DNA from: an uncultured Geobacteraceae bacterium
Lineage (GTDB): Bacteria; Desulfobacterota; Desulfuromonadia; Geobacterales; Pseudopelobacteraceae
Assembly: GCA_903876875.1 (NCBI GenBank)
Contig: CAIRBT010000081.1
Span: 1-60,227 of the forward strand
DNA: 60,227 nucleotides
Direction: 5' to 3'
Positions 15,277-47,617 of the stretch are shown here, in pieces (the first letter of the stretch is position 1; every line of letters begins with the position of its first letter). The notes beneath the pieces were generated by a model. It saw only the letters and a program-made list of their open reading frames with translations. It did no database searches and was not told the origin of the DNA. Position numbers and translations under genes: made by a program.

Positions 15277-15381
15277 TAAGTCGGTAATTTTTTTTTATTG
15301 TCGTGAGTGCTGCATAAGAGAATAACGACGAACAGAACAGATACGGTTGTGCAGTTACTTTATTTAAGGAGGAAATTAGTT

Positions 15382-18300
15382 ATGAAAACGCTCATCACAT
15401 CAGTCATCATGGCGGTGCTGCTCATGACAGGCCAAAGTGCCTGGAGTGCCATTCCCCGCACGATCTCGTACCAGGGGTATCTCGCCGCCACCCCCGACAA
15501 TGTCACCTTCACTGGCGCTGCCCAAATGACCTTCAGTCTCTATGAGGACGCCACCGTGGGCTCTCCCCTCTGGACGGAGAGTCTGAGTGCAGTGCCTGTC
15601 GTAAAGGGGGGCTACACGGTACTCCTTGGAAAGAGTAATGCTCTCGAATTAAGCTTTGATAAAGTATATTACCTGGGGGTAAAGGTAGGCACCGATACCG
15701 AAATGGTGCCTCGGCATGAATTGTCTGCATCACCATTTGCCTTCAGAACCATTAACGCCGACAGTGCCGACACCTTGTCACTCTCCTGTAACGATGGCCA
15801 GATACTGGGCTATAGCACCTCCAGTACATCATGGAGATGTGTGGATGGAGCTGTTAACGGAGGCGGCACCTGGGGAACTATTAAAGGTACCCTTACCAAC
15901 CAAAGTGATCTGGCAGCTGCCCTGACTGGAAAGGTGAGTACATCAACCACCATCAACGGCCGTAGCCTGAACAGAAACGTAAGTCTCATTGCTGCTGACC
16001 TTAATCTGGGCAACGTGAACAACACCACTGACATGAACAAGCCTGTCAGTCTGGCAATGCAGACCGCACTTAACGGCAAGGCCGCCAGCGGAAGCAACGC
16101 TGACATCACCCGCCTTTCCGGCCTGAAGACCGCCATCACCGTACCCCAGGGGGGAACGGGGAGTACTGCCTTGACCGGCTATGTGAAAGGCTCAGGCACC
16201 AACGCCCTGACCGCTTCCACCTCCATTCCGGTGGCTGATATTTCCGGTCTGGGTACATTTGCAACCAAATCTCAGGCATCACTTACCGCCGACGTCACCG
16301 GCATCCTGCCGGTCACCAAGGGGGGAACCGGCAGCACCACCCGTAACTTCGTCAATCTGACCGACTCGGAAACCATCAACGGCACGAAAACCTTCAGCAA
16401 CGTGATTATCGGTAGCGTGTCCGGCAACGCCATTACTGCAACTACTGCCACAAAACTGAGTGCAGGATCAACACTGCCAAGCGACACTCTGGCCGCCACC
16501 CAGGACATAGTGGACAACAGCGACAAAATTGCCACAACGAAATTTGTACACAGTATGGCCGACAGTGTCAGCTCCAGGGCTGCCAGTGGCGCCAACAGTG
16601 ACATTATCAGTACGAGTAGTTTGACAACCGTCACGACGACAGAGGCCACGGACTTTACCCTGCTGACCGGTGGAAGCACCAGTATTATACCAAAAGCTGG
16701 CTCAATTAAGCTTACGGGCGGTGCTGCAGTGGATAATGACCAGGACACAGCTGTCGGCGGTTCAGTCGTGCTTACCGGCGGTGACTTCATCGGAATGAAC
16801 GAAGTGGGGATGGCTGGTTCGGTTACCATCAGTGGCGGTTCTGGTGGCAACGGTACAGGTGGGGATGTTGTTCTCTCTGCCGGTAAGGGGATCCTGGCTC
16901 CCGGTGCGGTTAAGGTACAGGGTCTCCGTATCATGTCCCAGAATACGACCAGCACCAACACTCCCGTACTGTCTACTACGACGCCCTCTTTCGGTGTAAA
17001 AATAGCAGCTTATTCTGACATCTCCAGCTCTGGCGTCAACCTGACAGCCCCATCCAACACCACCTTGTATACCCTGACCCTTCCGCCAACTGCGGGCACA
17101 CGCAATCAAGTCCTTGCCACCGACGGCACCGGCATTTTGAGCTGGACAACTCCTATATCCGGTACCGTCACCGACATTAAGGTTTCGGCACCGGTACTAT
17201 CCTCCGGTGGCCCCGTACCAACCATCAGCATTACCAAAGCCGACGGCACCACCGATGGTTATCTTTCTGCCACTGATTTCAAGGCTTTTAACGACAAACA
17301 GAACGCCTCCGCCAACCTGAACAGCTTTGGTACACTGACAAACAGCAGTGGCTGGTTAAATAACAACGGCTCGGGTCTATTGAGCTACAAAAACCCGACC
17401 TCAGCGGATGTAGGGCTCGGCAATGTGACCAATGACGTGCAGACCAAGGCAGCGATTGTACCAAACACAGCACCGACTGCTGGCCAGATTTTGATTGGTA
17501 ATATCAATAAAGCGTTTACAGCTCAGAGCGTAAGCGGTGACGGCTCCTTTGATGCTACCGGCACACTCACCATTACAAAGACGGAAGGGCAACCCTTCGG
17601 GCGTCTGGCAAAGCAGAGCAGCGTAAATCTTACCAGCAGCACTGATGTTACCGGCACGCTGCCGGTGGCAAACGGCGGTACCGGACTGGGAAGTAACCTT
17701 GCCGTCGGTGGCCTGCTCTATGCATCCAATGCCACAACATTGAGCAGTCTGAAAACGGACACCAGTGGCCTGATACTGACATCCGCTGCAAACGCAGCCC
17801 CAAGCTGGAGCAAGGATCTCACCTTGAGCGGCAATCTTACTGTCACCGGCACCACCTCCTTGAATAACACAATTATCAATGGCAGCAGTACCTTCACCAC
17901 CGGTACGGGTGCGGTATCCCTGAACGGCAACACAATACTTGGTGCAGGCAAGTCACTTAGCTTCTCCAACAGCAGCAACAAAAAAATAGGTTTCGCTGCC
18001 CCTACAACCATCAACAGCGAATACACCCTGAGCTTGCCGCCAGCCGCCCCTGGTACCAACGGTCAAGTGCTTGCCAGCGATACCGGTGGCAACTTGAGCT
18101 GGGCACCGATAATGACGATTCCCGCAGGGACTGTCGTAGCATACATGGGGGTCACCGCCCCTCCAGGATGGGTAATGTGCAACGGTGCCTCCGTTACCAT
18201 AACCAGCACTTTGAATACTGATTATGTTGCGCTCTACCAGTTGCTGTATGGCACAACGAGTGCAACCGGTACGTTAGTATTGCCCGACATGCGGGGTCGT

Positions 18301-18612
18301 TTTTTGAGGGGGCTGGATAACGGTGCGAATCGTGACTTCGACACGGGAACGCGCGGAGCAGAAGGTGCTGGCAAATCTGGAAGCAATGTAGGCTCAGTAC
18401 AATCGGATGCCTTTGCAAATCATGACCATGGCGTAAGTGCTCAAGGTAGGAGAACGACCGCCAGCCCAGACAATGCTAATGGTGTAACAGTAATTGACCC
18501 GGGAACGTCAGGTGGGTGGTTTAATAACATTGACAAAATCGACGTTCTGCCAAGCGGCGGTTCCGAAACCCGCCCAAAGAATATCGCGGTTAATTATATT
18601 ATTAAAAAATAG
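15382..18612 (+). CDS. Large secreted fibre-like protein with C-terminal phage tail-collar domain
   Basis: This 1,076-aa protein starts with a Sec signal peptide (MKTLITSVIMAVLLMTGQSA). An N-terminal domain (about residues 25-125, RTISYQGYLAAT to HELSASPFAF) resembles one found in many uncharacterised surface proteins. A long Ser/Thr/Gly/Asn-rich shaft carries tail-fibre-like repeats (VPQGGTGST, LPVTKGGTGST, LPVANGGTGLG). The last 165 residues or so form a tail-collar domain (PPGWVMCNGAS, LPDMRGRFLRG, FANHDHG). No other phage genes are near, so I infer a cell-surface or released adhesin. ATG 15382 follows AAGGAGG; the open frame reaches back to 15307 without such support. A strong terminator closes the gene. 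Confidence 0.82.
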   Translation: MKTLITSVIMAVLLMTGQSAWSAIPRTISYQGYLAATPDNVTFTGAAQMTFSLYEDATVGSPLWTESLSAVPVVKGGYTVLLGKSNALELSFDKVYYLGVKVGTDTEMVPRHELSASPFAFRTINADSADTLSLSCNDGQILGYSTSSTSWRCVDGAVNGGGTWGTIKGTLTNQSDLAAALTGKVSTSTTINGRSLNRNVSLIAADLNLGNVNNTTDMNKPVSLAMQTALNGKAASGSNADITRLSGLKTAITVPQGGTGSTALTGYVKGSGTNALTASTSIPVADISGLGTFATKSQASLTADVTGILPVTKGGTGSTTRNFVNLTDSETINGTKTFSNVIIGSVSGNAITATTATKLSAGSTLPSDTLAATQDIVDNSDKIATTKFVHSMADSVSSRAASGANSDIISTSSLTTVTTTEATDFTLLTGGSTSIIPKAGSIKLTGGAAVDNDQDTAVGGSVVLTGGDFIGMNEVGMAGSVTISGGSGGNGTGGDVVLSAGKGILAPGAVKVQGLRIMSQNTTSTNTPVLSTTTPSFGVKIAAYSDISSSGVNLTAPSNTTLYTLTLPPTAGTRNQVLATDGTGILSWTTPISGTVTDIKVSAPVLSSGGPVPTISITKADGTTDGYLSATDFKAFNDKQNASANLNSFGTLTNSSGWLNNNGSGLLSYKNPTSADVGLGNVTNDVQTKAAIVPNTAPTAGQILIGNINKAFTAQSVSGDGSFDATGTLTITKTEGQPFGRLAKQSSVNLTSSTDVTGTLPVANGGTGLGSNLAVGGLLYASNATTLSSLKTDTSGLILTSAANAAPSWSKDLTLSGNLTVTGTTSLNNTIINGSSTFTTGTGAVSLNGNTILGAGKSLSFSNSSNKKIGFAAPTTINSEYTLSLPPAAPGTNGQVLASDTGGNLSWAPIMTIPAGTVVAYMGVTAPPGWVMCNGASVTITSTLNTDYVALYQLLYGTTSATGTLVLPDMRGRFLRGLDNGANRDFDTGTRGAEGAGKSGSNVGSVQSDAFANHDHGVSAQGRRTTASPDNANGVTVIDPGTSGGWFNNIDKIDVLPSGGSETRPKNIAVNYIIKK

Positions 18613-31969: not shown

Positions 31970-33277
31970 TCAGTGAGCCGAACTTCTCGGTGGTTTTTCC
32001 TCCGCCACATCAACAGAATCCTCCTGACCGGAGATAAACACCTCATCACCGATAAACCAGCCGATTCCGTTGTCGGCAACATGGAAATCACCATTAAGAA
32101 TCGGGATGGCAACCCGCAGCAGCATGGTGTAAATAAACAGACCGGTGGCCCAAATGCCCATGGCCAGCATTATCTCGATGTTGCTTGGTGAGTATTCATA
32201 AATCTCGTGTAACGTGTCCGGAATAAAGCCGGGGATAACCAATCCCATCCCCTTTTCAATGTAGACTCCGACAAATACCAGGATACAACCAAGAACCAAG
32301 GTCTTGTTATTGTGCCGGGTCGCTGGAATTAAAAAGAGGAAAAAAGCGACAATATTAAAAGTCATGGCGGTCCAGATATAGGGCACCAGTGCGGAGTGTC
32401 CATGTAATCCCTGGAACAGATACAAGAAAGAATCAAGGTGCACCGTGTCGGTGTAATACTCTTTGAACAGCTCGGCTCCCAGCAGCAGAAGGTTAATGAA
32501 CATGGCATATGCCATGATTTCAGCCACTTTTTGAATGGCTTCATCCTTGATCCTGAACTTGGTGTATTTACGCACCAAGAGGAATAGCAGCAACATGAAC
32601 GCCGGGCCGGAGCAAAAGGCCGACGCGAGGAAACGGGGAACCAGAATGGAGGAGTTCCAAAATGGTCGGGCACCGAGACCGTTATAGAGGAATGCCGTAA
32701 CCGTGTGAATGGAAATGGCCGATGGTATGGAGAGCAGCACCAGCGGGGTATAGAAGTTGTGATTCGGCTCCCGTTTGTAATAGAGGTTGTAAAGAATGAA
32801 GACCGAAATTGTCACGTTAAGAATGAGATAGGTATTAAGAACAACCACATCCCAGGCAAGCAGTGATTGGGGAAAATTGAGCCGCCCAAGCTTGGGAATC
32901 AGATGCCAGAAGCGTTCAGGATGTCCCAGGTCAGCGGTCACAAAGAGCATACACATGATAATTGCCGACACCGCCAGCAACTCTCCCAACACAGCGAACT
33001 CCTTGATGGGCCCCCACTCATAGACGTAAGCCGGAATAACCAGCAGTACGGCAGCAGCGGCCACCCCAACCATGAAGGTAAAGTTGGAAATATAGAAGCC
33101 CCAGGAGACCTGATCCCGCATAGCAGTAACCGCCAACCCCTGATCCAGCTGTTGTAGATAGGCATAACCACCAACGGCCATCAGCGACAGCAAAAACAGC
33201 ACCCAGCAGTAGTACGCCTTGCTCCCCTTGGAGACAAGAACCAGAGTTCCCGCAAAAAAATTGAGTATATTTCTCAT
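31970..33277 (-). CDS. NrfD/PsrC-family integral membrane quinol oxidoreductase subunit
   Basis: This 435-aa protein has about ten hydrophobic segments and belongs to the NrfD / HmcC / DsrP superfamily, which exchanges electrons between the menaquinone pool and a partner Fe-S protein. Recognisable stretches include WGFYISNFTFMVGVAAAAV and TADLGHPERFWHLIP. The C-terminal tail of about 50 residues is hydrophilic. It is the last gene of a three-gene operon after a tetraheme cytochrome and a Tat-exported Fe-S protein. The set resembles the Cbc menaquinol:cytochrome complexes of Geobacter. GGGAG precedes the ATG. Confidence 0.9.
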   Translation of the reverse strand: MRNILNFFAGTLVLVSKGSKAYYCWVLFLLSLMAVGGYAYLQQLDQGLAVTAMRDQVSWGFYISNFTFMVGVAAAAVLLVIPAYVYEWGPIKEFAVLGELLAVSAIIMCMLFVTADLGHPERFWHLIPKLGRLNFPQSLLAWDVVVLNTYLILNVTISVFILYNLYYKREPNHNFYTPLVLLSIPSAISIHTVTAFLYNGLGARPFWNSSILVPRFLASAFCSGPAFMLLLFLLVRKYTKFRIKDEAIQKVAEIMAYAMFINLLLLGAELFKEYYTDTVHLDSFLYLFQGLHGHSALVPYIWTAMTFNIVAFFLFLIPATRHNNKTLVLGCILVFVGVYIEKGMGLVIPGFIPDTLHEIYEYSPSNIEIMLAMGIWATGLFIYTMLLRVAIPILNGDFHVADNGIGWFIGDEVFISGQEDSVDVAEEKPPRSSAH

Positions 33278-33290
33278 TGTTGCTCCCTGA

Positions 33291-34214
33291 TCACGTTGCG
33301 TAGAAATAAAAGAACTTTGGTTGAGTATTGAGCTCTTCTTTCAGAATGAATACCCGCTTATGCTCGATGAGGTATCTGATTTCACTCTCGGGATCAAGCA
33401 GGTTGCCAAATTTACGGGCTCCAACCGGGCAGATCTCTTCGCATGCCGGATAACGTCCCGGTTGTTCACGGGTTCGCTGCACGCAAAAAGTACATTTTTC
33501 AACGACCCCCCGGGGACGGGGACGATTGCCCAGATAGTGGGTCACCGGATTCATCTCCGCCTTCGGAAGTCCCGGTTTTCCCCAGTTGAAGTGACGGGCA
33601 CCGTAGGGGCAGGCCGCCATGCAGTAACGGCAACCGATACACCAGTTATAGTCCACCACCACAATGCCATCCTTTTCTTTCCAGGTGGCCTGAACCGGGC
33701 AGACTTTGGTACAGGGGGGCTTTTCACACTGCTGGCACTGAACCGGCATGTAAAAGTGCCCCTTGGCCGGAACCTGCTCCGGGTTGTAATAGTGCTCCGC
33801 CCGAGAGAGATCAACCCCTTTTTCCTTATCAAGCTGCATAACTCTGATCCAGTGAATCTGCGGATCACGGGACTGATTATTTTCCTTGACGCAGGCGTAG
33901 ACGCAGCGGCGGCAGCCGATACAACGGGAGAGGTCAAGGGCATACCCATAACGAACCCCTTCGATGGGCAGCGTCGTCTTAACGGTGACTTTCTTGTCGA
34001 ACTCACCGCTGTACTTAGCTTCAAGACGATTGATAACCGCCTTCAGCTCATCCTTGTTAAGTTCCTTGAAGTGCTTTTGGAAAAACTCTTCCCACATGGA
34101 GGCTGAGGCATCCTTGCCCGGAAGGGCAATCAGCCCGGCTCCCGCAGCAACTCCCTTTAAAAATTTACGTCGTGACCGATGCTGGTCATAGGAATTCTTT
34201 TTATTGTCTGACAT
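33291..34214 (-). CDS. Tat-exported 4x[4Fe-4S] ferredoxin subunit (NrfC/DsrO/HybA type)
   Basis: This 307-aa protein has an N-terminal twin-arginine signal (SRRKFLKGVAAGAG), so it is exported folded to the periplasm. Sixteen ligand cysteines appear in the usual four groups: CIGCRRCVYAC, CQQCEKPPCTKVCP, CIGCRYCMAACP and CTFC...CEEICP. It should pass electrons between the NrfD-like subunit (13 bases downstream) and the tetraheme cytochrome (32 bases upstream). The frame opens at TTG 34220; ATG 34214 after GGGAG is preferred. Confidence 0.93.
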   Translation of the reverse strand: MSDNKKNSYDQHRSRRKFLKGVAAGAGLIALPGKDASASMWEEFFQKHFKELNKDELKAVINRLEAKYSGEFDKKVTVKTTLPIEGVRYGYALDLSRCIGCRRCVYACVKENNQSRDPQIHWIRVMQLDKEKGVDLSRAEHYYNPEQVPAKGHFYMPVQCQQCEKPPCTKVCPVQATWKEKDGIVVVDYNWCIGCRYCMAACPYGARHFNWGKPGLPKAEMNPVTHYLGNRPRPRGVVEKCTFCVQRTREQPGRYPACEEICPVGARKFGNLLDPESEIRYLIEHKRVFILKEELNTQPKFFYFYAT

Positions 34215-34246
34215 GAACAACTCCCTGAGAGTCTTAAATTTCCGGA

Positions 34247-34762
34247 TCAGTGCCGTGCCGCGTCGGGACGAACCGGCGGGGGGAGCGGCTTAAGCGATTT
34301 GAACTTCGGATCATGGGGATTATGACAATGGACACAAAGCAGATACTGCTTTTCGCCATTCCAATATCCGGTACGTTTACCATGAACCCCGACCTTCCAG
34401 TCACGGTACTTGTCACCATGGCACTGTCCGCACAGTCGATACGACTCGGAGAAATCAACCGGATCCCCCGAAACCAGTCGCAGGGTGTCCCGGTTTAACA
34501 GATTGTGGCAATCGGTACACCACCGCTCCCCTTCGGCATGATGGAGGACGATTTCCGTATGATATTCGGTTAATACCCGCCGTTTTGGGTTCGGCTTGAA
34601 GTATTTGTGACACTGGCTACAAGGGAAAATCCCCTCTGAAAAGGGGGGACGGGGCACCTCGAAGGTTTTTTCCGCTGCATACACCGTCACGGATGCAAGT
34701 ATCAACACCGATACCAGAGCGGACAGGGGGAACTTACGGCTGAAGAAACGGGATATTTTCAT
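34247..34762 (-). CDS. Periplasmic tetraheme c-type cytochrome of the NrfD operon
   Basis: This 171-aa exported protein has a signal peptide (FPLSALVSVLILASVTVYA) and four CXXCH sites: CSQCH, CTDCH, CGQCH and CVHCH. The proline-rich tail (LKPLPPPVRP) may contact partners. As first gene of the cytochrome / Fe-S / NrfD operon it is probably the electron entry or exit point of a menaquinol-linked complex. CGAGG precedes the ATG. It is divergent from the triheme/dodecaheme cytochrome genes across 310 bases. Confidence 0.9.
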   Translation of the reverse strand: MKISRFFSRKFPLSALVSVLILASVTVYAAEKTFEVPRPPFSEGIFPCSQCHKYFKPNPKRRVLTEYHTEIVLHHAEGERWCTDCHNLLNRDTLRLVSGDPVDFSESYRLCGQCHGDKYRDWKVGVHGKRTGYWNGEKQYLLCVHCHNPHDPKFKSLKPLPPPVRPDAARH

Positions 34763-35072
34763 CTTTACCTCGATTGTGGTGCTGCTGGGTTATAATCCTT
34801 CCGGACAGAGGGGACCGATACAAGTACACAAAACGGGTGTGCCTAAACACGTCATCATTAACACAAAAAAATTACCCTATCGCCATACTGATATGAGTCG
34901 ATCGAATTTGTCAACACAAAAAGTGCGACTCTAAAATATGGTTTTGCAGATTTACCTATTGATATTACCGAGTCAAGGGTGTATTTCTGTGCTTAAGAGG
35001 TTACCGACCACCGGATCTATAACAACTCTTTTGAGTTGAATAGTGAAGCTAAGCAAACAAGAGGAGGGATAC
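34763..35072. promoter_or_regulatory. Divergent intergenic region of the cytochrome genes with a palindrome
   Basis: The 310-base AT-rich gap separates two cytochrome transcription units. CAACTC-TTTT-GAGTTG (35023-35038) is a perfect 6-bp inverted repeat 34 bases before the triheme ATG, an operator or leader hairpin. TTGATA at 34959 is followed at 17 bases only by a weak -10. I see no small gene here. Confidence 0.4.
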
Positions 35073-35387
35073 ATGTCTTTTTTTAGAACAGCGGTTGCAA
35101 CCGTGACTGTGACAATCGTTTTTTCATCGGTGGCACTGGCCATCCAACCGGGAAAGACGGTATCGTGGAATACCCCCATGGGCAAGGTAACTTTTAGCGG
35201 TAGTAATCATGCGGCAATGCAAGTAGGTTGCCTGGAGTGCCACTCCAAAATTTTTAAAATGAAAAAAGGTTCTACCGAGATGACCATGGCAGATATTACT
35301 GCCGGCAAATTCTGCGGGAAATGCCATCGTAAAGGTGGCAGAGCCTTTGAACCAGAAGGAAACTGCGACATCTGCCACAAAAAATAG
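35073..35387 (+). CDS. Single-domain c7-type triheme cytochrome with an altered axial-ligand motif
   Basis: This 104-aa periplasmic protein has a signal peptide (RTAVATVTVTIVFSSVALA) and three CXXCH sites (CLECH, CGKCH, CDICH). It corresponds to one repeat of the dodecaheme protein encoded next. The domain usually carries FSHxxH before the first heme, giving two distal His ligands; here it reads FSGSNH, so the first His is Gly. One heme may therefore lack its normal sixth ligand or use another residue. GAGGAGG precedes ATG 35073; the upstream GTG at 35043 is not supported. Confidence 0.88.
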   Translation: MSFFRTAVATVTVTIVFSSVALAIQPGKTVSWNTPMGKVTFSGSNHAAMQVGCLECHSKIFKMKKGSTEMTMADITAGKFCGKCHRKGGRAFEPEGNCDICHKK

Positions 35388-35509: not shown

Positions 35510-36526
35510 ATGACAAAATTTCTGGTGCTATCATCCCTCGCGCTCGTGCTTATGGCGGCGACATTTTCCGGTGCAGCTGAGTACAAGGATGTTACGTTTA
35601 CCTTCAAGAACGCTGCTCCGGTCGTGTTCAGCCACGAGCTCCACCTCAGCAAGTACAACAAAAACTGCAAGGTCTGCCACAGTGCCATTTTCAATCTGCG
35701 GGAAAAACGCCATTTCACCATGGCTGAAATGGAAAAAACCCGTTCCTGCGGTGCCTGCCATACCGGCATAAAAGCCTTCAGTGTTACCAGCGGCAAAGAT
35801 TGTATTCGCTGCCACAAAGGGACTCCAAAGGACATAGCGTTCACGATCAAGGGGCTTGGAGCAACCGTATTCAGCCACGCCAAGCATATCGCCAAGGCTG
35901 ACGGCAACTGCCGGGTTTGCCATGACGGCACCGTAAAAGGCAAAAACGTCACCATGGCTCAGATGGAACAGGGCAAAAAATGCGGTTCCTGCCATAATGG
36001 CAAACGAACCTTCACCGTTACCGGCAACTGCGAACGGTGTCACAAAGGGTTCAAAACCAAAGAGATTACCTTTGCTCTGAAATCCGTGGCAGCAGCCACA
36101 TTCAGTCACAATCTCCACGTACAGGCATACAAGTGTGCCGACTGTCATAGCAAACTGTTCCCCTTCCGCTCCGTTGTCGGCAAAGCGACCATGGGTGACA
36201 TGGCCAAAGGGAAATCATGCGGCAGTTGCCACAATGGCAAGGACGCCTTCTCCGCAACGGGTGACTGCGCGAAATGCCACAAAGGCTTCAAACCGGGCAA
36301 CATCACCTTCAAAACCGATGGCGGGGAAGCTACTTTCAGCCATGAATTCCATCTCCAGAGCTACAAGTGTGCCGATTGCCACACCAAAATATTCCCCTTC
36401 AAAAAGGGCACCCTTACGGCAACGATGGCGGACATGGAAGCGGGGAAATCCTGCGGCACCTGCCACAACAAAGACAAAGACGCCTTCTCGGTACAAGGTG
36501 ACTGTGGCAAATGCCACAAGATGTAA
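35510..36526 (+). CDS. Dodecaheme c-type cytochrome made of four c7 triheme repeats ('nanowire' type)
   Basis: This 338-aa periplasmic protein has a signal peptide (KFLVLSSLALVLMAATFSGA) and twelve CXXCH sites in four repeats of about 75 residues. Each repeat has FSHxxH, three heme motifs and a TM-x2-M element. It matches the architecture of Geobacter sulfurreducens GSU1996, an elongated heme chain in which one heme per domain is His-Met ligated. The TM(A/G)xM elements fit that role. It probably carries electrons across the periplasm. ATG 35510 after AAGGAG is preferred over earlier in-frame starts. It has its own promoter and terminator. Confidence 0.93.
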   Translation: MTKFLVLSSLALVLMAATFSGAAEYKDVTFTFKNAAPVVFSHELHLSKYNKNCKVCHSAIFNLREKRHFTMAEMEKTRSCGACHTGIKAFSVTSGKDCIRCHKGTPKDIAFTIKGLGATVFSHAKHIAKADGNCRVCHDGTVKGKNVTMAQMEQGKKCGSCHNGKRTFTVTGNCERCHKGFKTKEITFALKSVAAATFSHNLHVQAYKCADCHSKLFPFRSVVGKATMGDMAKGKSCGSCHNGKDAFSATGDCAKCHKGFKPGNITFKTDGGEATFSHEFHLQSYKCADCHTKIFPFKKGTLTATMADMEAGKSCGTCHNKDKDAFSVQGDCGKCHKM

Positions 36527-36614: not shown

Positions 36615-38699
36615 ATGACAAAATCGAGCCTGACCCGCAAGATAATTCTGATTATCGCCTCTACCCTGTTCCTTGGCTTTACCGGCCTCGGCATCCTCAC
36701 CACCTGGCTGGAATATTCCGCCACCATTGACCTGCAACGAAAAAATGCCCGCCAACTGACATCAACGGTCAGTCATGATATTTTGAACCAGATGGCAAAG
36801 GGGGATATGTCAGACTTTGCCAGTTACGTCGGCGATATCAAGGCCAAGGGGGGCATATCTGATATCCGGCTGTTCAACGCTGAGGGAAAAGAGCGGGGAA
36901 GCGGAACCGTCAGCGAAGAGATCCGCACTGCCATCTCAACCGGCAAACCGGTTGAACTAACCGGCAGTAAAGACGGCAAACGGGTTCTAAATCTGGCACT
37001 CCCCCTCCTTAATGAAGAGCGCTGTCACAAGTGCCACAGCAGCACGGAAAAGTACCGTGGCGGTATTTTACTAACCACCTCCCTTGAGGAGGGCTTTTCT
37101 GCAGCACTCCGCCTGACCTTGATTATTGTGGTTGTCGGAATTTTTTTCTTTTTCGTCACCCTGGCAGCCCTCGCCCTCTTCTTGAAACGCACGGTCGTGC
37201 GACAAATCACCGAACTCTATCAGCAGATTGGTGACCTTGCCGGTAGTGAGGGTGACCTAACCCGGGTGCTTGAGGTTCGGTCAGACTGCGAGATAGGTCG
37301 TTTGGGGAAGGAGGTCAATAACCTGACGACTAAAATCAGGATTTCATTCCTCGACCTGTACAAGCAGATCGGTAAAATCGGTGTCGACGTGTGTAAACTC
37401 TCTTCCGGCACCAGCAGGACTCTCAAAATGACCCAGGATCAGAAGGAGCAGGCGGCTGCCGTTGCCACTGCCGCGTCAGAACTGGCAGCAACCATCTCCG
37501 GAGTCAACGAGAATACCCACCGGGCCGCCGAGCTTTCAACGGCGGTTGACAGTGCGGCCAGCAACGGCATGGGAGTGGTTGAGGAAACCTGGAACTGTAT
37601 GCAGCAGATCAGCAGTAGTGTCAACGGCACTCTGAGCATCATTCAGGAACTGGAAAGTGCCTCGGCTCATATCGGCGAAATGGTTGTCCTCATTGAAGAC
37701 ATCGCCGACCAGACCAATCTGCTGGCACTCAATGCCTCCATTGAGGCGGCTCGTGCCGGTGATGCGGGCAAGGGCTTTGCCGTAGTCGCCAGTGAGGTCA
37801 AGGGACTGGCAGAGAAAACCACCGCTTCGACACGAGAGATCAAGCGGGTTGTGGCGAGCATCCAGAGCACCAGCCACTGTGCCGCCGAAATGATCAACAC
37901 GGAAAGCAGGCTGGTGCAGACCGGCTTAACCCGGGCAGCGGAGGCACGGGATAGCCTGGAAAACATTAAGAATCATGCCAATGAATCACGCATCATGATC
38001 GAACAGATAGCGACCGTCTCGGAAGAGCAGAGTGCCACAACAAATCATATTTCAGAAATGATCCACCTGGTCTCCCGCTCCGCAGAAGAGACCAACACCA
38101 TGATGCAACGAACCAGCGAAGGGTTCGCCATGTTTACCGAGGTAGTAGAGCAGGTCTATGGCACTGTCGGTAAATTCTCCGTCGGCAATTATCATGACAG
38201 TACAAAAGGGTATATCCATGAAATGGCAGCACAGTTCAACGCTGCCATTGCAAAGGCACTTGCCGACCGCACCATCACCATAGACAGCCTTTTTGACCGG
38301 AAATATGTTCCCCTGCCGAACAGTGACCCCCAAAAATACCGTACAAAGTTTGACCAATTCTTTGACCGGATTATTTCTCCGTTTCAGGAAGCGATCGTCA
38401 CCCGCGACACCAAGGTGCTCTATGCCATCTGCGTGGATAATAACGGCTATGTCCCCTGCCACAACCTCCGCTTCACCAAGCCGTTGACCGGTGATCCCGA
38501 GACCGACAAGAATGGCAACCGAACCAAGCGGATTTTCAATGACCATACCGGCTTGCGCTGCGCCCAGAACACCAACGGCTTCCTGCTGCAAACTTACAGC
38601 CGCGACACGGGGGAAATCCTCAACGACATGTCCCGGCCGATTTATGTCAACAATCGCCACTGGGGTGCCATCCGTATCGGCTATCTGGTTCCTGAGTAA
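36615..38699 (+). CDS. Heme-motif methyl-accepting chemotaxis protein with C-terminal sensor domain
   Basis: This 694-aa chemoreceptor has TM1 (about residues 9-30), a small periplasmic domain with a c-type heme motif CHKCH at residues 137-141, TM2 (about 160-185), a HAMP-like linker and an MCP signalling domain with the hairpin tip [18 protein letters not shown]. An extra C-terminal domain of about 150 residues then follows ([29 protein letters not shown]) and resembles Cache-like modules found after MCP domains. Periplasmic heme-c receptors are known in Geobacter (GSU0582, GSU0935). Its place after the cytochromes suggests redox or electron-acceptor taxis. The second sensor is cytosolic and its ligand is unknown. 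Confidence 0.92.
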
Positions 38700-45505: not shown

Positions 45506-47617
45506 TCAGTCGGTCAGGCGCCAGGCCGTCAGCTGAGCGATAGTATGCTGGAACTTGCGCCCCGTTTCCCGTATCACAAACGGCACGTCACGGGGTTCAC
45601 CAATCATCTGGAAATGGGGTTTCAGGGTTTCCTTGAGCCCCTCCAGTGACCATACCGGTTCACCCGCATCCCGGTACCCCCCCAGCCATTCCTCTTTTTT
45701 GGTAAAATCCTCCAACCAGGTATAGGGAGAGGTGAGAATCAGCACCGCTCCCCGGTTCATCCGGGTGTGGATCGTTGTCAGGAAGCTGCGGGGGGAATAG
45801 AGTCGATCAATGAGATTGGCCGCCAGTACCAGATCGTAACCCCGGAATTTTTCCGGCAGGTTGCAGGCGTCTCCCTGATAAAACTCCACCCGATTACGAA
45901 TTTCCGCCAATTCCAGTTTATCAAGACCAACTTCATGATAAGAAACAATATCCCCCTCTTCGGGCAGGGTATAGCGCAGATACCCCTCCTCCTGCATCCG
46001 GGCTGCCAAGCGGAAGAAGCGGGTTGAAAAATCCACGCCGGTCACCTTCTCGAACCCCTTCCGCGCCAGTTCAAACGAAGCCCTTCCGAGGGCACAACCG
46101 AGGTCAAGGGCATGACCGGTGCCGTTTGCATCCAGATAACCATGGGCAATGGCGGCACAGGTGGCCGGAAAATTCGCCACACCAAAGCGCTCCGGCCCAT
46201 AGTGAGCATCACAATATTGGGACGTCAGGGCATCGCTTTCGTACTGATCGTCGTGGATCGGCACCGGTGCCGAACTCTCGATATAGCGGAAACCGGCGTG
46301 CTGATAGAAATGACGCCGGAAGGCATAACGGGCATCCCGGGTGGCCTCATTACCGGTGGAGATCCACGAGCCCCCCTTAATCAGGTTATGGCGGGTGTCA
46401 AAGGTCGGCGTTGAGAAATCATCGTACCAGGGATGAACGGCAAAACCATGGAACGGATAGATCGGAGTTTCGGTCCATTGCCAGACATTGCCGATAACAT
46501 CACAAAAGTCTCCGGTTCTGAAGCGATCAACCGGACAGGAGGAGCTCCAATACTCAAGATTGATGTTGCCGGGAGCCGTATCCCACCCGGGCTGATCCGA
46601 CAAGCCGCTGATATCCCGCAACCGGCTCCATTCATCTTCGCTCGGCAATCTGATTGGAGTGCCACACCGGGCGGCTTTCCAATTACAGAACGCCTTGGCC
46701 TCCAGGCAATTGACCTCCACCGGCCAGTTCCAGGGCATCGGAATTTCACTGGCCATGGTACGCAGCTTCCAGCCATCGTTTCCCGTGATCCAGAAAAGCG
46801 GGTAACCGGCCTCTTTAAAACAGCGCCACTGCCACCCTTCCTCACTCCACCACTGCTGTTCGGCATACCCCCCGGCTACAACGAATTCGAGAAACTCACG
46901 GTTGGAGGTAAGATACTCTGCCGCACTGAAAGCGGCAACGTCCGCACGGTACTTTCCGTACTCGTTATCCCAGCCGTAGAGCGGATGTTCCCTCCCTTTG
47001 CCCAGGTTCACCGCCCCCCCCGTCACCTTCACCAACCGATTGACAGGCGGCTCCCCCTGTTCGGTGCAGATTGGCCACTGCGGCAGCTGCCGAACCCGCT
47101 CAAGGGGAAGTTGTCGAATCAGCACCGACGACGTTTCCAGATGGATGCGTTGATGTTCAATCCCCATCATAATCCCCCACAGCGGGCTTTCCCAACCGAT
47201 GGGCAGCGTCAGCGGCAGCTCCCGGATCAGGCGGTCAATCAGGACGCGCACCTGGTACCGGTATTCCCGAACCTCGTCGCAGGTGGGCCAGTCGTAGTGG
47301 GCTTCATTAAGATCATCCCAAGACATTTCATCGACCCCCACGGCAAACATCGATTCAAAGCGGGGATTGATGCGTTTTTCAATGACATGGGCAATGGTCA
47401 GCTTATTGATATAAAAGGTTGCCGTATGACCGAAATAAAAAATCAACGGATGCCTGAGCCGGTCGGCACGCAGATAAAAGCTACCATCATCGGCCAGCGT
47501 ATCGTAGATACGTTCGTCAATCTCGAAGGTGGCATGAAAATAAGCCAGTATTTCAGCACGTTTCTGTTCAGGCTCCCCTTCGTTCAGGATAATTGTATGT
47601 GGTGAGCACGGTTCCAT
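45506..47617 (-). CDS. ovoA: Ovothiol synthase OvoA (5-histidylcysteine sulfoxide synthase with methyltransferase domain)
   Basis: This 703-aa protein has the full OvoA layout: an N-terminal DinB-like domain with iron ligands H64 and H155-x3-H159 (IEHQRIHLE), a formylglycine-generating-type sulfatase-modifying domain (about 200-450, WNWPVEVNCLEAKAFCNWKA and DVIGNVWQWTETP), and a C-terminal SAM methyltransferase (ALDLGCALGRASFEL). OvoA joins histidine and cysteine using O2 and then methylates, giving the antioxidant ovothiol. AGGAGG precedes the ATG. A C-S lyase (OvoB) is not nearby. It is divergent from metH. Confidence 0.92.
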   Translation of the reverse strand: MEPCSPHTIILNEGEPEQKRAEILAYFHATFEIDERIYDTLADDGSFYLRADRLRHPLIFYFGHTATFYINKLTIAHVIEKRINPRFESMFAVGVDEMSWDDLNEAHYDWPTCDEVREYRYQVRVLIDRLIRELPLTLPIGWESPLWGIMMGIEHQRIHLETSSVLIRQLPLERVRQLPQWPICTEQGEPPVNRLVKVTGGAVNLGKGREHPLYGWDNEYGKYRADVAAFSAAEYLTSNREFLEFVVAGGYAEQQWWSEEGWQWRCFKEAGYPLFWITGNDGWKLRTMASEIPMPWNWPVEVNCLEAKAFCNWKAARCGTPIRLPSEDEWSRLRDISGLSDQPGWDTAPGNINLEYWSSSCPVDRFRTGDFCDVIGNVWQWTETPIYPFHGFAVHPWYDDFSTPTFDTRHNLIKGGSWISTGNEATRDARYAFRRHFYQHAGFRYIESSAPVPIHDDQYESDALTSQYCDAHYGPERFGVANFPATCAAIAHGYLDANGTGHALDLGCALGRASFELARKGFEKVTGVDFSTRFFRLAARMQEEGYLRYTLPEEGDIVSYHEVGLDKLELAEIRNRVEFYQGDACNLPEKFRGYDLVLAANLIDRLYSPRSFLTTIHTRMNRGAVLILTSPYTWLEDFTKKEEWLGGYRDAGEPVWSLEGLKETLKPHFQMIGEPRDVPFVIRETGRKFQHTIAQLTAWRLTD

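Follow-up and report, generated by a model that had tools for sequence, protein, structure and literature searches.

A Single-Domain Triheme c7-Type Cytochrome with Glycine at the Heme I Distal Histidine Site in an Uncultured Geobacteraceae Bacterium

Introduction

Periplasmic c7 proteins are thought to act through transient contacts with their partners. In cytochromes of the PpcA type, the distal ligands of hemes I, III and IV are His17, His20 and His47, respectively, and PpcA and PpcB of Geotalea are described as low-spin proteins in which every heme is six-coordinate (PMC11787507). In GSU1996, domains C and D each carry an axial Met (Met209 and Met287) on one heme (PMC10138318). Open coordination sites have been described in OcwA, an extracellular-electron-transfer cytochrome in which hemes 2 and 5 are five-coordinate, give EPR signals near g 6 and are accompanied by weak nitrite reduction (PMC6703420). 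Besides an EPR signal near g 6, NMR methyl resonances above 40 ppm are typical of high-spin heme, and an axial Met shows up near −3 ppm in reduced protein. A search of the literature, narrow in reach and covering titles and the starts of abstracts, found no paper on a c7 protein that lacks the distal ligand of heme I.

The gene described here (P0001) lies in a window of 60,227 nucleotides, the whole stretch of DNA analysed, from an uncultured Geobacteraceae bacterium (contig CAIRBT010000081.1). Its product shares with domains C and D of GSU1996 (1rwj, 3oue and 3ov0) the fold (Z 11–12), the three CXXCH motifs and the position of the axial Met of heme IV; in GSU1996 the first distal His is retained and the domains are joined one after another, whereas P0001 consists of one unlinked domain and has Gly at that site. 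Like PpcA-E, it would be a periplasmic single-domain triheme protein, and its second distal His is in the same place. However, all hemes of the PpcA type are bis-His, whereas P0001 has no counterpart of His17 or His47, its structural similarity to PpcA reaches only Z 5–6, and it falls below the cut-off of the PpcA family NF043011 (31.8 bits against 120). OcwA of Thermincola (6i5b) resembles it in being a multiheme electron-transfer cytochrome in which distal sites of hemes are open, although the open site of P0001 is a predicted one, and OcwA has nine hemes, is NrfA/c554-like and matches P0001 marginally in sequence (E 0.016).

The most likely reading, to which slightly better than even weight is given, is that P0001 is secreted and carries electrons in the periplasm as a c7 protein whose heme I has no fixed side-chain ligand, and that it belongs to a widespread Gly-type group within TIGR04257.

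Results

The Gene and Its Product

The following features were placed on the forward strand; residues are numbered from the initiator Met, with mature numbering in brackets.

35062–35067, +: ribosome-binding site AGGAGG, 5 nt 5′ of the ATG (sequence)
35073–35387, +: P0001, gene for a 104-aa triheme c7 cytochrome of one domain, Gly type (71.1 bits against a cut-off of 40 for the c(7)-type triheme domain TIGR04257; 55.2 bits against 24.8 for PF14522)
35073–35141, +: predicted signal peptide, residues 1–23, ending in VALA and followed by IQPGK (AXA rule)
35154–35156, +: Lys28 (5), predicted opposite Gly43 in the hairpin from strands 6–11 and 14–19
35199–35201, +: Gly43 (20), at the heme I distal His site (sequence, homology)
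35208–35210, +: His46 (23), putative heme III distal ligand (homology)
35229–35243, +: CLECH, heme I attachment, proximal His57 (sequence)
35259–35261, +: Met63 (40) (alignment of 130 Gly-type proteins)
35286–35288, +: Met72 (49), counterpart of axial Met209 and Met287 in GSU1996, heme IV (alignment)
35313–35327, +: CGKCH, heme III attachment, proximal His85 (sequence)
35364–35378, +: CDICH, heme IV attachment, proximal His102 (sequence)
35510–36526, +: dodecaheme cytochrome downstream of P0001, GSU1996-like, with four c7 domains that all read FSHxxH (sequence, profile matches)

The reading frame is exact, from the ATG at 35073 to the TAG at 35387 (ORF check), and the product passes both domain profiles. 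It runs through the signal peptide to ALA, whose cleavage site was placed by the AXA rule alone, and then as IQPGKTVSWNTPMGKVTFSGSNH...CLECH...CGKCH...CDICH, so laid out that the three CXXCH motifs stand in c7 spacing. A structure model was built with AlphaFold on 130 aligned rows of both Gly and His types (pLDDT 91.6, pTM 0.77) and was used in place of one made from Gly-type sequences only (pLDDT 62). The model has the c7 fold; its best structural matches are 3oue (Z 12.1) and 1rwj (Z 11.1), each with an rmsd of 1.7 Å over 77 residues, and strands 6–11 and 14–19 form a hairpin. Sequence comparison likewise ranks GSU1996 and fragments of it first among solved relatives (3ov0, E 1.3e-35).

Ligands of the Three Hemes

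The earlier note had contrasted the FSGSNH of P0001 with FSHxxH in the four repeats of the adjacent dodecaheme protein, and re-reading of the sequences bears this out (FSHELH, FSHAKH, FSHNLH and FSHEFH in the dodecaheme domains). It had also held that the first His of this c7 motif ligates a heme, which agrees with the assignment by homology of that His to the distal position of heme I (His17 of the PpcA type); on the same homology, Gly43 appears to replace this ligand in P0001. Residue 4 of the model pairs with residue 1 of PpcA, which puts mature Gly20 on residue 17 and His23 on residue 20, where the structural match gives the end points only and the register was set by the common F..x..H frame.

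Mature P0001 contains four His and no more (23, 34, 62 and 79 in mature numbering), three of them within CXXCH motifs. Because there are four His for three hemes, coordination of all hemes by two His, which the earlier note had named as counter-evidence, is impossible in P0001. In 113 of 130 Gly-type sequences, too, the number of His as far as the third CXXCH is exactly four. Heme III would be bis-His, with His85 as the proximal and His46 as the distal ligand. Counted along the chain alignment, Met209 and Met287 of GSU1996 correspond to Met72 of P0001, the earlier of the two Met residues in TMADM. We take the heme that carries Met209 and Met287 in the GSU1996 structure to be heme IV, and this fits the place of His47 in PpcA. 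Heme IV of P0001 is thus probably a His-Met heme, ligated by His102 and Met72.

The position of Met72 is occupied by Met in 129 of the 130 Gly-type proteins. In the sole exception (L119), a His follows three residues later, and three other Gly-type proteins (L121, L128 and L151) also have His at that point. The loss of Met in L119, with a His nearby, suggests replacement of the heme IV ligand, so that a lost ligand looks compensated at heme IV in this protein and uncompensated at heme I.

Conservation of Glycine Among Relatives

Sampling was centred on P0001 and therefore describes its relatives, not c7 proteins at large. All 115 loci from the closest-match searches, in which some genes are repeated, have Gly at the heme I distal site. 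A single-protein search of 58 genomes (its own and relatives) gave best-match loci with Gly in 29 of 29 (L010–L038). A search of 277 Desulfuromonadia genomes gave 156 with a match at E 1e-22, a figure that is not a count of the Gly type because His-type proteins score up to 1.9e-24 in the phylum search; the new loci (27/27) and the further readable stretches (59/59) all have Gly, so that the 86 loci read among these matches are uniformly Gly-type, in a sample that excludes family f122, whose matches are weaker. The presence of Gly throughout the nearest relatives indicates that the change in P0001 is no private mutation.

At greater distance both residues are met. A scan of a species-level collection gave 52 loci, 41 Gly-type and 11 His-type, and a search of 395 genomes of the phylum gave 96 with a match at 1e-10. 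Thirty loci from the latter search comprised 12 Gly-type, 12 His-type and 6 of neither type, and 39 stretches picked from it comprised 1 Gly-type and 38 His-type. Among the sequences gathered before the Desulfuromonadia search, 149 distinct single-domain proteins fit the pattern, 69 with Gly and 80 with His and none with another residue at the site. Set aside from this pattern screen were 12 matches with a CXXCH count other than three (Lys in 4, Asn in 2, Ala in 2, Thr in 2, Leu in 1, and a seven-heme row with Gly). From the later sets, two stretches were left out, one being a three-heme ORF off the pattern that is another protein (L212) and the other having 10 bases (L285). The question posed in the earlier note, whether orthologs restore His, thus has two answers: the nearest relatives do not, while distant single-domain relatives with His exist, yet the two types part on the tree.

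This tree (150 rows and 81 columns, calculated without columns 5 and 20) separates the Gly and His types with two changes, the extra one owing to a long-branch row (L108). A single origin would be compatible with a tree of so few columns. Two contigs, named Nitrospirae (L074) and Bacterium BMS3Bbin05 (L075), each carry a tandem pair of Gly-type triheme genes.

Search for a Replacement Ligand

An alignment of 130 distinct Gly-type sequences was examined, from which one sequence without an N-terminus (L286) was excluded. Since the pattern demanded His46 and the CXXCH motifs and the type demanded Gly, the occurrence of Gly and His46 in all 130 follows from the selection and by itself proves nothing. 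No invariant substitute side chain for heme I was found among these 130 proteins: of the side chains able to bind heme iron, His46 is invariant and Met72 nearly so, and the others vary.

Lys28 was invariant among the first 52 Gly-type sequences, and the register of the modelled strands would place it directly across the hairpin from Gly43. Over all 130, residue 28 is Lys in 108, Arg in 15, Asn in 3, Asp in 2, His in 1 and Thr in 1; the two rows with Asp (L108 and L279) have a Lys one residue earlier. Lys28 was accordingly rejected as a universal ligand of heme I, being replaced in 22 of 130, because Arg, Asn and Thr are unlikely stand-ins for an iron-binding Lys. Residue 63 (position 40) is Met in 125, Lys in 3 and Tyr in 2, each of which could bind iron; in His-type proteins the same place is Met in 45 of 80, the others including Thr, Gln, Ser, Pro or gaps.

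The mature N-terminus lies five residues ahead of the strand in practically all Gly-type members and also in several His-type relatives. The fixed five-residue arm was considered as proof of an N-terminal ligand and is weakened as such, since several His-type relatives, in rows read by eye, are similar in arm length. Counts of arm length were not used, as the crude cleavage rule departs from the expected 18–19 in 18 of 69 Gly-type proteins. In the comparison of Gly with His types, divergence is by definition complete at position 20 (JS 1.00) and next highest at position 5 (JS 0.79), and the mean JS is 0.52 over positions 1–9, 0.26 over positions 10–19 and 0.23 over positions 21–81.

Neighbouring Genes

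The recognised genes around P0001 in the window, besides the dodecaheme gene, are as follows.

31970–33277, −: NrfD/DsrP-like membrane subunit (DsrP profile passed, 424.6 bits against a cut-off of 350)
33291–34220, −: Fe-S subunit in the NrfD module, DsrO/QrcC-like (profiles; below the DsrO cut-off, 183.9 against 200)
34247–34762, −: tetraheme cytochrome in the NrfD module, divergent from P0001 (profiles; same neighbour in other loci)
36615–38699, +: methyl-accepting chemotaxis protein with one CXXCH (CHKCH) in the sensor region (PF21563, Mcp40H-20 sensor domain, 111.8 bits)

The first three genes suggest an NrfD-type quinol oxidase module and point to electron transfer. The arrangement recalls that of Cbc4, the menaquinol oxidoreductase of Geobacter, in which CbcT is an Fe-S subunit (PMC7894505). 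The module is divergent from the Gly-type gene in 12 loci (L039–L049 and L051), which bear the taxon names Geobacteraceae, Geobacter, Desulfuromonadales, Desulfuromonadaceae or Deltaproteobacteria. The same three genes, at 58–68% identity, adjoin the Gly-type gene in a Nitrospirota locus (L079), giving a total of 13 loci, so that the association is drawn from near relatives and one member of the Nitrospirota. In a further locus (L191), Fe-S and tetraheme genes lie about 7 kb from the triheme gene.

Other relatives have other neighbours. Ten loci from Desulfuromonadia (between L290 and L305) have the Gly-type gene downstream, on the same strand, of GlcD-like (FAD-oxidase) and GlcF-like (CCG-domain) genes, at a distance from the GlcF-like gene of within 340 bases in eight and of 1.3–1.7 kb in two (L290 and L298). 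With a lactate racemase gene (LarA) present in six of the ten, these loci look like lactate-oxidation operons with their own periplasmic cytochrome. The cytochrome c assembly genes ResB and CcsA adjoin the Gly-type gene in four loci (L191 and L193–L195) and a His-type gene in another (L083). None of these tested neighbours (NrfD, GlcD/GlcF, ResB-CcsA) was found in 57 of the 86 loci, of Gly and His type together, that exceed 4.5 kb and contain a triheme match.

Other genes of the window were noted in passing. The CHKCH motif makes a heme possible in the sensor region of the chemotaxis receptor, which stands beside the cytochromes and may be a redox or gas sensor. A 703-aa protein (45506–47617, −) combines an FGE-sulfatase domain with a methyltransferase domain, an architecture reminiscent of OvoA-type enzymes, and a 1101-aa ORF (15307–18612, +) has a phage tail collar domain.

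Discussion

Most likely, no side chain is a fixed ligand of heme I in P0001, and the protein acts as a periplasmic electron carrier. This view of heme I is favoured because no other donor is conserved in the Gly-type group and because the loss of a ligand at heme IV appears to be compensated in L119. The sixth position of heme I, whose proximal ligand is His57, would be open, bound by water, or covered no more than loosely by the N-terminal strand, which is basic and in which residue 28 is predicted to lie opposite Gly43; such a heme would be exchangeable and could be high-spin. Hemes III and IV would pass electrons between inner-membrane donors, of which the divergent NrfD/Fe-S/tetraheme module may be one, and the neighbouring dodecaheme protein.

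A heme I ligand peculiar to certain members (Lys28, Met63), or one from the N-terminal amine, is possible. A majority side chain as the ligand, either Met63 (Lys or Tyr in five proteins) or Lys28, would yield a His-Met or His-Lys heme, and this is considered unlikely. The restriction of position 40 to Met, Lys and Tyr in the Gly type, against a wider range in the His type, speaks for Met63, but Met also stands there in more than half of the His-type proteins, in which heme I should be bis-His. Position 5 is Lys or Arg in 123 of 130 and, after position 20, is the most type-specific site, which argues for Lys28; the replacements by Arg, Asn, Asp, His or Thr argue against it, as does domain C of GSU1996, where a Lys at the same position is paired with a distal His. 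The N-terminal α-amine of a protein is a heme ligand in cytochrome f. If the mature N-terminus of P0001 (Ile24) acted likewise, Gly43 would leave room for the arm, and no donor other than this amine is common to every Gly-type member. The residue before the five-residue arm is Ala in 129 of 130 and Ser in 1, type specificity is highest along the N-terminal strand, and positions 1–10 of the model have a mean pLDDT of 89. Nevertheless, this ligand seems rather improbable, since several His-type proteins (L100, L105, L106, L160 and L161 among them) have arms of nearly equal length and the cleavage site that would free the amine is a product of the AXA rule.

Heme I may instead be an active or sensing site for NO, CO, nitrite or sulfur species, with residue 28 as a hydrogen-bond donor. 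The five-coordinate hemes and weak nitrite reduction described for OcwA (PMC6703420) offer a precedent, and a residue capable of hydrogen bonding (Lys, Arg, Asn, His or Thr) occupies position 28 in 128 of 130 proteins. The conserved columns, however, show no set of catalytic residues beyond that position, and the recognised neighbours are electron-transfer, lactate-oxidation and cytochrome-assembly genes, although the chemotaxis receptor with a CXXCH motif does lie in the window. An electron carrier is ranked above an enzyme or sensor because the neighbouring genes belong to respiratory electron transfer, and a dedicated site of this kind is thus thought unlikely, too. The least probable of the readings considered, and a distinctly improbable one, is that Gly merely tunes the potential of an ordinary carrier while a partner protein or a second molecule fills the site in vivo. 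It would suit the transient partner contacts of periplasmic c7 proteins and the proximity of the gene to several differing redox systems, but a ligand supplied by a partner is hard to square with neighbours so varied.

A heme I without a fixed ligand in a periplasmic electron carrier thus remains the preferred reading. As a more speculative extension, to which rather low weight is given, this conserved group of triheme proteins of about 80 residues in Desulfuromonadia and Nitrospirota may keep a permanently open heme beside two electron-carrying hemes and may use it, in the periplasm of bacteria that respire metals, for the binding or reduction of some small molecule. If the ligand of heme I has indeed been lost, the Gly-type group would offer a natural scaffold of very small size that combines one exchangeable heme with two electron-transfer hemes, and it poses a defined question, namely, what binds heme I.
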